Both the position numbers and the translations under genes were made by a program. From Pseudomonadota bacterium (lineage in GTDB: Bacteria > Desulfobacterota > Binatia > Bin18), in the NCBI GenBank assembly GCA_005804965.1, contig SYOC01000111.1, positions 1 through 59,509 on the forward strand: a stretch of DNA of 59,509 nucleotides, given 5' to 3'. Position 1 is the stretch's first letter. Every line of letters starts with the position of its first letter. Below the pieces are notes generated by a model. It was not told where the DNA came from and did not search any database. It was given only the letters and a program-made list of their open reading frames with translations. This document shows positions 8,609 through 12,764 of this stretch, in pieces.

Positions 8609-8793
8609 GATCGGGGAGTATACTGCCCGAGTCCGAAGGGCGCAATGTGAAAAATGATAGTAGCGACGCGGCAGGTATGTCATTCCGAGCCGAAGCCTCG
8701 CGCAGGCGAAGAATCTCAAACACCATCGTAATGATAAGCGAGTTGCCCCCCCTCCTTTTCACATAACGCTCGGTCTGGTGTCTTTCTTCTACA

Positions 8794-9363
8794 GTGACGG
8801 CAATACACGTGGCTCAACAACAAGAAGAACGGCAAGTGTTCGCAGACATCGTGACGTTGCATCAGCATGTCGTCTATCGCTACCTGCTACGCTTCACCGG
8901 CAACGTCCACGATGCGCAAGACCTTTTTCAAGATACGTTCTTACGTGCGCATCGTGCCTATGCCGCCTTGCCAGCGGATGCCGACGTGTGCGCCTGGCTC
9001 ATGCGTATCGCCATTAACCTTACGAAGAATTACATCCGTGATCGCCAACGCCGCAGGCGCGTTATGCTCGAACCTGTAGGAAAGAGGGCAGATGATGAAA
9101 TCCCAGAACCAAAAGACAATGCCGATACGGAGGGACTTATGATCTCGCGAGACATTGCACGTACCTTGCAAACTGCCATCGCCGCACTGCCTTTTCATCA
9201 GCGTGTGGCCTTCACCCAGCGACAGTTTGAAGGTCTCGAATATGCTACCATCGCTACCCATCTCGGATGTTCACAGGAGAGTGCCCGTGCTCACGTCTAT
9301 CAGGCGCTACGCAAGTTGCGCCTCGTCTTGGATGGCACCGATGCTCGGGAACAAAGAGGATAA
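8794..9363 (+). CDS. ECF-type RNA polymerase sigma factor
   Basis: Region 2: DAQDLFQDTFLRAHRAYAALPADADVCAWLMRIAINLTKNYIRDRQRR; region 4: IAALPFHQRVAFTQRQFEGLEYATIATHLGCSQESARAHVYQALRKLR; GTG start. Confidence 0.93.
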   Translation: MTAIHVAQQQEERQVFADIVTLHQHVVYRYLLRFTGNVHDAQDLFQDTFLRAHRAYAALPADADVCAWLMRIAINLTKNYIRDRQRRRRVMLEPVGKRADDEIPEPKDNADTEGLMISRDIARTLQTAIAALPFHQRVAFTQRQFEGLEYATIATHLGCSQESARAHVYQALRKLRLVLDGTDAREQRG

Positions 9364-9367
9364 CATC

Positions 9368-10339
9368 ATGCCCACTATACATGCCCATTCCCTTCCCTGC
9401 GGGTTTACCGAAGATCTCTTGATCGCGGAGACTTTGGCAGAAACGACCCCTGCACTGAGCCAGCAAGTGGCTGCGCACCTTGCTAGTTGTGCTTCGTGTC
9501 GGACGTTGGTTGAACGCTATCGCGGCCTGCAAACGCATCTGCATACCTTGGCGGCAACCGACAATGCTCAGCGCGGCCTTCCACAAGCACGCCAACGGTT
9601 GGATGCCCAGTTAGCCCTGCATACGCGCCCACGACTGCAAGTGGAAATCTGGCATTCGCCGGTAGGCGATTTGCGGATCGGACGAACAGCGAAAGGTGTT
9701 GCCCTCGTCGAGTTCGTGCGACCCGACGAGCAGACCGTCGTCCCCACACAGCGGTGGAACGAGTTCACGCTTGAAAACGGCGGATTAGAGGTGCAAACCT
9801 TGATCGGACAACTCGAAGGCTATTTCGATGGCCAGACGCAGGACCTCGCCTGGCACGTCGATGACGTGTTTATGCGCAGCGACTTTCAGCGGACAGTGCT
9901 GCATGCCACGGCGGAAGTGCCCTACGGTACGGTGGTGACGTACCAAGCCATTGCCGACACTATCGGCCAGTCGAAAGCTGTCCGCGCTGTTGCTCAAGCA
10001 TTGCGTCATAATCCCGTGCCCATCCACATTCCCTGTCACCGCGTCATCGGCAGCGACGGCGCGCTGACCGGCTATGCCGGTAATCTGGTCGACATCAAGA
10101 AAAAAATTCTGGAACTGGAAGGGATCCCTGTCGTTGCCACCGACAAAGGACTCGCCATTGCCCGAGGGCAGATGTACATCGGCTGGCGGCGCGACCGGTA
10201 TTTTTGTCTGCCGCGCTGCACCACGTTGAAAGAACAGTCGGCTGGAGATCGTGCTTTCATTGCTTCACGTACACGTGCCGAAGCGATGGGCTATCGGCCA
10301 TGCGACGTGTGTCATCCGGATCTTCAACTTTTTTCGTAA
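9368..10339 (+). CDS. fusion: N-terminal ZAS-like anti-sigma motif + O6-alkylguanine-DNA alkyltransferase (Ogt) + C-terminal Ada-type Zn domain
   Basis: HLASCASC (HxxxCxxC) near N-terminus; Ogt core VPYGTVVTYQAIADTIG...AVRAVAQALRHNPVPIHIPCHRVIG; C-terminus YFCLPRC...GYRPCDVCHPD; ATG 9368, AGAGGA RBS; starts 4 nt after sigma stop. Confidence 0.9.
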   Translation: MPTIHAHSLPCGFTEDLLIAETLAETTPALSQQVAAHLASCASCRTLVERYRGLQTHLHTLAATDNAQRGLPQARQRLDAQLALHTRPRLQVEIWHSPVGDLRIGRTAKGVALVEFVRPDEQTVVPTQRWNEFTLENGGLEVQTLIGQLEGYFDGQTQDLAWHVDDVFMRSDFQRTVLHATAEVPYGTVVTYQAIADTIGQSKAVRAVAQALRHNPVPIHIPCHRVIGSDGALTGYAGNLVDIKKKILELEGIPVVATDKGLAIARGQMYIGWRRDRYFCLPRCTTLKEQSAGDRAFIASRTRAEAMGYRPCDVCHPDLQLFS

Positions 10340-10365: not shown

Positions 10366-10758
10366 ATGGCAGGACGTATTGACCACACCATTATCGCCGT
10401 CAACCGCTACGAACAGGCGTGTCAGTTTTATGCGTGGCTGATGCCGAAGATTGGCTATCCGCAGATGCATGACTATGGCGTAACACGGGGGTGGGCGGCG
10501 GACTCGGGCAGTTTCTGGATCAAGCAAGCCGGGGCGCAATTCGCCAGTGACACTTTTCACAAAGATCGCGTCGGGCTGTGCGAAATCGCTTTTCGTGCAG
10601 ATAATCGCGCACAGATCGACGAACTCGCCCAAGGCATCGTCGCCAACGGCGGCACGATTCTCGACCCACCGCGCGAGTACGACTACGTCCCCGGCTACTA
10701 CGCGGTCTTCTTTGCCGACCCGGACGGTATCAAGCTCGAGTTTGTTCATATGCCTTGA
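10366..10758 (+). CDS. VOC (glyoxalase/bleomycin resistance) family protein
   Basis: IDHTIIAVNRYEQACQFYAWLMPKIGYPQMHDYG...YYAVFFADPDGIKLEFVH; RBS ataggaggacgtt. Confidence 0.9.
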   Translation: MAGRIDHTIIAVNRYEQACQFYAWLMPKIGYPQMHDYGVTRGWAADSGSFWIKQAGAQFASDTFHKDRVGLCEIAFRADNRAQIDELAQGIVANGGTILDPPREYDYVPGYYAVFFADPDGIKLEFVHMP

Positions 10759-12347: not shown

Positions 12348-12764
12348 ATGGCTCGCCACACACTCGTTTCGCCGCGTGGCCTCCGAGCGAAAGCCACTGC
12401 GGCGGCGCAACAGCCGCGTTTCTTTGCTTATGTCTATCGACTGGTCGCGCAAGTACCGAAAGGCACAGTCGTGACTTATGGACAGGTGGCCGCATTACTC
12501 GGCGCACCCCGCGCCGCGCGTGCCGTCGGCACGGCGTTACGTCATTTGCCGCCGCAGTTAGTGGGCACAATTCCCTGGCAGCGGGTCATCAACGCCTCCG
12601 GCGGCATCAGCTTTCGTGGCGATGTTATCCGCGTCGAGGAGCAGCGCTGGCTCTTGGAGAACGAAGGCATTGAGTTTAATCGTCACGGCAAAGTCGATCT
12701 GAAAACCCAACGCTGGGCTGGTCCGAAAAAGTGGCGCGTGCCACAGTGGAAGGGGAAGGTGTAG
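12348..12764 (+). CDS. alkyltransferase-like (ATL) protein, MGMT family without catalytic Cys
   Basis: VPKGTVVTYGQVAALLG...RAVGTALRHLPPQLVGTIPWQRVINASGGIS; PWQR where Ogt has PCHR. Confidence 0.9.
   Translation: MARHTLVSPRGLRAKATAAAQQPRFFAYVYRLVAQVPKGTVVTYGQVAALLGAPRAARAVGTALRHLPPQLVGTIPWQRVINASGGISFRGDVIRVEEQRWLLENEGIEFNRHGKVDLKTQRWAGPKKWRVPQWKGKV

Follow-up and report, generated by a model that had tools for sequence, protein, structure and literature searches.

Does a sigma factor gene found beside a gene for a DNA-repair protein encode one half of a switch that answers DNA alkylation? The question is raised by two adjacent genes in a 59,509-nucleotide stretch of Binatota DNA, called the window here. 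An earlier note, made from the sequence alone, had read them as an ECF sigma factor and a protein joining a zinc-binding anti-sigma (ZAS) domain, an O6-alkylguanine transferase (Ogt) domain and an Ada-type zinc site. ZAS domains are dedicated binders that hold ECF sigma factors, Ogt and Ada_Zn domains accept methyl groups irreversibly, and E. coli Ada switches transcription through methylation of its C38.

An ECF sigma gene adjoins a gene for a predicted ZAS-Ogt-Ada_Zn protein

8794..9363, + strand: ECF sigma factor, 189 aa, regions 2 and 4 (Pfam)
9368..10339, + strand: ZAS-Ogt-Ada_Zn protein, 323 aa, candidate alkylation-sensing anti-sigma factor (Pfam, alignment A3, AlphaFold2)
9368..9619, + strand: N-terminal anti-sigma (ZAS) domain, aa 1-84, with C11/H37/C41/C44 (conservation, model, Foldseek)
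9626..10135, + strand: Ogt domain, aa 87-256 (Pfam, Foldseek)
10034-10036, + strand: acceptor cysteine C223 of the Ogt domain, in PCHR
10160..10321, + strand: C-terminal Ada-type zinc site, aa 265-318, with C280, C284, C312 and C315 (Pfam, Foldseek, conservation)

Re-reading the sequence gave the same two open reading frames as the earlier note, at 8794-9363 and 9368-10339. The sigma protein matches Sigma70_r2 (E = 1.8e-15) and Sigma70_r4_2 (E = 9.8e-13) in Pfam and, being short and containing only sigma-70 regions 2 and 4, meets the criterion for an ECF sigma factor. In the 323-aa protein the metal-binding and acceptor cysteines are all at the positions claimed for them, and the claim of a full Ogt domain is borne out by the PCHR acceptor motif and by a DNA_binding_1 fold found with both Pfam (DNA_binding_1/Ogt, E = 3.3e-31) and Foldseek. 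The C-terminal site had been likened to that of Ada. It has the form CxPxC-N27-CxxC, compared with N26 in E. coli Ada, and scores above the cut-off for Ada_Zn_binding (E = 4.1e-8, 33.5 bits against 23), the match spanning model positions 13-65 without the N-terminal edge of the model. We take C280 to be the counterpart of Ada C38. Pfam found no AraC helix-turn-helix (HTH) in the protein and the zinc site is C-terminal, so the canonical Ada order is not met. The protein had been described as lacking a transmembrane segment, and none was seen in the sequence or in the structure model. The domain search had been set beforehand as a possible refutation; it recovered Ogt and Ada_Zn, and placed zf-HC2 slightly under its cut-off (E = 8e-4, 19.9 bits against 22.2).

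Structure models and residue conservation

Modeled with AlphaFold2 (pLDDT 87.8), the 323-aa protein runs from four N-terminal helices to the Ogt domain and then to a small zinc-type domain. The helices, at residues 15-22, 28-40, 42-64 and 71-84, meet the class I zinc anti-sigma layout of a three-helix bundle and a flexible fourth helix. When residues 1-95 were modeled separately (pLDDT 74), the 19 best Foldseek matches in the PDB were all chains of ECF anti-sigma entries, with ChrR first and RslA, RsiW, DdvA and MucA also represented. Their probabilities reached 0.92 but every E-value was 1 or above, because the domain is small. The full model matched M. tuberculosis OGT (4wxc, E = 1e-12) and methylated N-Ada (1u8b, probability 1.0, rmsd 1.9 over 54 columns, E = 0.011).

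The Ogt and Ada_Zn cysteines are invariant in alignment A3, which holds 36 relatives from two phyla, and C280, C284, C312 and C315 are all invariant in alignment A6 as well; the spacing within the Ada-type site is N27 in most loci and 28 in a few. C11, H37, C41 and C44 do not vary in an alignment of 22 ZAS-type N-termini, again drawn from two phyla, with the spacing C-x25-H-x3-C-x2-C in nearly all loci. The ZAS domain proposed in the earlier note is upheld by its motif, ligand conservation and fold, but not by the zf-HC2 score. We kept the assignment because the ligands are conserved and the fold matches; with motif and fold both met, the shortfall is a matter of threshold.

The gene pair recurs in two phyla

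The earlier note had called for a search for linkage to ECF genes across genomes, and this linkage proved to be conserved. In f1, the Binatota family of the source genome (G000), ZAS-Ogt-Ada_Zn with a sigma gene directly upstream occurs in 15 of 16 genomes, and every f1 locus with sufficient sequence shows this order; in G011 and G007 the fusion gene is in two pieces on different contigs. The fusion is also present in G055, from another Binatia family, f12. In the phylum Rokubacteria, 48 of 95 genomes encode a full or contig-cut ZAS-Ogt-Ada_Zn protein. The sigma gene is immediately upstream in 46 of 47 Rokubacteria loci (34 genomes), the 47th being cut by a contig end, and the sigma stop and fusion start usually overlap. 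The sigma gene and ZAS-Ogt-Ada_Zn form a conserved module and not a one-off fusion.

A chance fusion or annotation artefact was ruled out, as linkage and architecture recur in two phyla. In 399 Pseudomonadota genomes, scanned with few candidates scored per genome, the best matches listed end at or near Ogt or extend further only across stop codons. One record titled as a Klebsiella pneumoniae MAG (CAMBFS010000032.1) carries a Binatota-type module at 60% identity and is probably mislabelled.

The module sigma factors are related to one another across these groups. Those of f1 are about 40-47% identical to those of Rokubacteria or of f9, a further Binatia family, and the six other ECF-like genes of G000 are 21-33% identical to its module sigma. 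In a tree, the G000 module sigma groups with the f9 and Rokubacteria module sigmas, apart from the paralogs of its own genome (93/95 support), with the caveat that the paralog branches are long. In f12 the only copy is that of G055, whose module sigma clusters with those of Rokubacteria, suggesting likely horizontal transfer; G055 has retained a canonical Ada as well.

Versions without the ZAS bundle

Family f9 has a sigma factor and Ogt-Ada_Zn without the three-helix bundle, and keeps a helix aligned with helix 4. Here too the sigma gene is directly upstream of the Ogt-Ada_Zn gene, in 13 of 13 loci. A third version, type C, again pairs a sigma factor with Ogt-Ada_Zn, but its sigma is closer to another ECF of G000; it was found in Binatia families besides these, and Rokubacteria carry it as a second copy; in the type C survey an ECF gene lay directly upstream on the same strand in 11 of 15 fetched Ogt-Ada_Zn loci. 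Among actinomycetes, a sigma gene followed by Ogt-Ada_Zn is present in Nonomuraea, on two Streptomyces plasmids and on one Rubrobacter plasmid (Streptomyces and Rubrobacter records NZ_CP107856.1, NZ_CP108675.1 and NZ_CP007516.1), and a stand-alone ogt comes next in the Streptomyces plasmid loci. Across the class Binatia, whole-length Ogt-Ada_Zn matches were obtained in roughly 60 of 147 genomes, among the matches listed, and ordinary Ogts formed a separate, lower-scoring group.

As far as sequence can tell, what the ZAS and non-ZAS versions share is an ECF sigma factor and Ogt-Ada_Zn, which is why we would place the sensing function in Ogt-Ada_Zn. This amends the earlier proposal of sensing by a ZAS-Ogt-Ada_Zn protein: the ZAS bundle is dispensable, other families doing without it.

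The same survey bears on whether the two proteins are merely operon partners, the sigma factor driving an operon that happens to include a repair enzyme without being regulated by it. The sigma factor apparently does drive ogt genes through its promoter (see below), as this explanation would have it. Against it stand the dedicated sigma-binding role of ZAS domains, the stop/start overlap with unbroken pairing across phyla, and the occurrence of several N-terminal versions nearly always adjoining an ECF gene, and we consider it very improbable.

A predicted promoter and putative regulon

8756..8783, + strand: predicted sigma promoter, TTTTCACA-N14-GTGTCT (conservation, window search)

Only 10 nt separate the end of the predicted promoter from the sigma start codon, which would leave a very short leader or none. 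The element TTTTCACA-N14-GTGTCT occurs in the window with no mismatches, where 0.25 occurrences are expected at up to two mismatches. TTTCAC(A/G)-N14-GTGTC precedes sigma genes in f1 and Rokubacteria with a constant spacer of 14, often only 5-25 nt 5' of the start codon, and f9 has the variant TTCAC(A/G)-N13-GGGGTTATA. Its position upstream of the sigma gene supports, computationally and without transcription data, a putative autoregulatory promoter.

Other upstream elements were noted by eye only. Four type C sigma genes (L210, L211, L213 and L216) have an element of their own, approximately TTCCACC...CGTATA. The actinomycete sigma genes (L258, L259, L260 and L219) have CGGTGTT or CCGTGTT just 5' of the start codon, resembling GGTGT of Binatota, and the Streptomyces and Nonomuraea loci have an AACC-like -35 as well.

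A search of family f1 for TTTTCACA-N14-GTGTCT without mismatch returned 17 occurrences in 16 genomes: 12 before sigma operons, three before a stand-alone ogt operon (G000:C229, G001:C49 and G005:C13), one before an SDR gene and one unassigned. In G000 this exact 14-base form was found only before the module operon and the stand-alone ogt operon. Because the search patterns were built from sigma sites, only the non-sigma sites count as independent evidence. Sites of the f9 variant stand before ogt (G023, G110) and before MFS genes (G068, G101). That stand-alone ogt is a target of the module sigma is supported at the computational level, again without transcription data, and is to be read as a prediction.

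At the G000 ogt site (L055:451-1264), the stand-alone ogt overlaps a 103-aa gene, both behind the exact promoter copy; the C-terminal part of the 103-aa product is a partial Ada_Zn-like match. SDR oxidoreductase genes lie directly behind promoter copies at G000:C438:7453 and 8267 (1 mismatch) and at G001:C33:37088 (no mismatch), and are possible further targets. The shorter pattern TTTCACA-N{10,20}-GTGTCT gave three hits in G000: the module operon, the ogt operon and a third (G000:C206) that was ruled out as a target, having a spacer of 15 and lying antisense within a 583-aa ORF.

A tighter pattern gave 32 hits in 17 Rokubacteria genomes, compared with 0 for a reversed control. These sites precede sigma operons as well as genes for small membrane proteins and for proteins of the DUF2652, DinB/mycothiol-transferase-like and Usp kinds. 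With the exception of the sigma operon, the Rokubacteria targets seen include no classic alkylation-repair genes, and neither alkA nor alkB was seen among the promoter hits. DUF2652-type proteins, a family of unknown function, stand directly behind the sigma promoter in six Rokubacteria loci (L136, L141, L142, L146, L160 and L161), suggesting a possible stress role.

The DinB/mycothiol-transferase-like genes among these targets would fit the main rival to an alkylation switch, a thiol-redox or electrophile switch of the RsrA type in which the C11/H37/C41/C44 zinc site senses and Ogt-Ada_Zn is fused repair cargo. It would also fit the retention of C-x25-H-x3-C-x2-C throughout the ZAS versions, the frequent use of soluble zinc anti-sigma domains as redox sensors (PMC7406223), and the C. 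glutamicum ZAS system SigH/RshA, through which an ogt-like gene and one for a glyoxalase are raised (PMC3489674). The f9, type C and actinomycete versions, however, lack the ZAS cysteines and retain the sigma factor with Ogt-Ada_Zn. We disfavor redox sensing as the common trigger because cargo leaves these versions unexplained, and hold it to be unlikely.

In the 37 promoters compared, the sequence 5' of the -35 element showed no conserved box of the Ada-box type. This null result counts against the protein being a co-activator and not a brake, that is, binding DNA or RNA polymerase once methylated and aiding its dedicated sigma factor as methylated Ada does, as do the absence of an AraC HTH after the zinc domain and the anti-sigma fold of the N-terminus. 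The Ada-type zinc site does act in this manner in E. coli Ada, and the ZAS-less versions have no obvious sigma-holding bundle. Co-activation is therefore less likely for the ZAS version and not excluded for the ZAS-less ones; taken as a whole, we think it improbable.

Neighboring genes and canonical Ada

10366..10758, + strand: glyoxalase-fold gene, 27 nt 3' of the fusion gene (PF00903, E = 2e-12)
12348..12764, + strand: alkyltransferase-like (ATL) protein, PWQR replacing PCHR (PF01035)

The glyoxalase-fold gene is possibly co-transcribed with the fusion gene, and is in the same place only in the loci of G001, G005, G009 and G011. An ATL gene lies about 1.4-2 kb 3' of the fusion gene in at least seven f1 relatives; that of the window has no promoter copy and was ruled out as a sigma target. 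No intact canonical Ada was found elsewhere in G000. Canonical Ada is present in 2 of 30 genomes with the f1, f9 or G055 module, compared with 30 of 69 others (Fisher p = 3e-4); this p-value overstates independence, as the genomes are related and mostly incomplete MAGs.

Proposed mechanism

We propose, as the probable reading, an autoregulated and alkylation-responsive ECF sigma/anti-sigma pair in which the anti-sigma factor is also a suicide alkyltransferase; the switch itself has not been shown experimentally. In class I anti-sigma factors, helix 4 grips sigma2 and helix 1 grips sigma4 (Wu et al. 2020, PMC7406223). At rest, the ZAS domain of the 323-aa protein would keep the co-encoded sigma factor off RNA polymerase, its helix 4 lying against sigma2 and its bundle close to sigma4, in the manner of other members of the class. 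Repair of alkylated DNA would irreversibly transfer methyl groups to C223 of the Ogt domain and/or C280 of the Ada-type zinc site, and the covalently modified protein would release the sigma factor. The freed sigma factor would then transcribe its own operon and alkylation-response genes such as the stand-alone ogt from TTTCAC(A/G)-N14-GTGTC. Transcription of its own operon would provide both positive feedback and fresh unmethylated inhibitor to reset the switch.

The pairing, the promoter, the autoregulatory site and the ogt target have computational support, while sigma binding and inhibition by the 323-aa protein, the methyl-transfer chemistry, and release upon methylation of C223 or C280 are inferred. 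The interpretation already offered in the earlier note, a sigma/anti-sigma switch, withstood two of the refuting conditions set there, as the domains were found and the ECF linkage is conserved; that methylation frees the sigma factor remains inference. The sigma/anti-sigma reading is supported further by the conserved promoter shared with stand-alone ogt operons, by the ATL gene nearby in many relatives and by the depletion of canonical Ada. Several points weigh against it. There is no experiment, zf-HC2 is below its cut-off and the N-terminal fold matches have E-values of 1 or more; the ZAS-less versions, with which only a short N-terminal helix is common, need other means of holding sigma; the Rokubacteria targets seen, the sigma operon aside, are not classic alkylation-repair genes; and the promoter hits included no alkA or alkB.

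Comparison with known systems

The module resembles E. coli Ada in its four-cysteine zinc site with an acceptor cysteine in FCxPxC and in its PCHR-containing Ogt domain; it too seems to be autoregulated and to have ogt among its targets. Unlike Ada, which is ordered Ada_Zn-AraC HTH-Ogt, it places Ogt before Ada_Zn, lacks the HTH and adds a ZAS domain, and its output runs through a dedicated ECF sigma factor with no conserved upstream box seen.

With RsrA/SigR, ChrR/SigE and RslA/SigL the module shares a soluble ZAS domain with HxxxCxxC, an ECF gene in the operon and autoregulation; the zinc ligand positions presumably equal C11/H37/C41/C44 of RsrA. Where ChrR carries a cupin, RsrA nothing, and others a membrane part, the C-terminal sensor is here a suicide DNA alkyltransferase, and the proposed trigger, unlike that of the RsrA, ChrR and RslA pairs, is covalent methylation derived from DNA. 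SigH/RshA of C. glutamicum is likewise an ECF/ZAS pair, but RshA is not known to have a repair domain. Genes for a methylated-DNA-protein-cysteine methyltransferase and a glyoxalase are raised in the rshA mutant (PMC3489674); the repair gene there is merely a target, unlike in the module.

The module also resembles the Streptomyces and Rubrobacter operons, in which an ECF sigma gene directly precedes an Ogt-Ada_Zn fusion, without the ZAS bundle and with a sigma factor only about 28-36% identical. The records annotate the sigma gene and the fusion as separate genes, the latter as a methyltransferase or 'Ada metal-binding domain protein', and mention no regulatory role. No description of an ECF sigma factor with an alkyltransferase anti-sigma was found in the literature searched, from which the main ECF classification paper and the bulk of subscription papers were absent. 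As far as checked, the kinds of component are known and their combination, which couples an Ada-type sensor to an ECF output, is undescribed. The module can be tested in cultivable Streptomyces carrying the ZAS-less version.

More broadly, we lean towards a class of bacterial switch for DNA damage whose anti-sigma factor doubles as a single-use repair enzyme, so that each repaired methyl lesion would consume one inhibitor and sigma output would count lesions. Such a switch would replace Ada in many Binatota and extend over at least three phyla including Streptomyces, with or without the zinc bundle. The known regulators of the adaptive response, Ada and AdaA, are DNA-binding activators, and ECF sigma factors are known to answer envelope, oxidative, metal and light signals. 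If the proposal is correct, an ECF sigma factor would answer DNA alkylation with the repair enzyme itself serving as an irreversible, covalent sensor, which would explain how many Binatota manage without canonical Ada.
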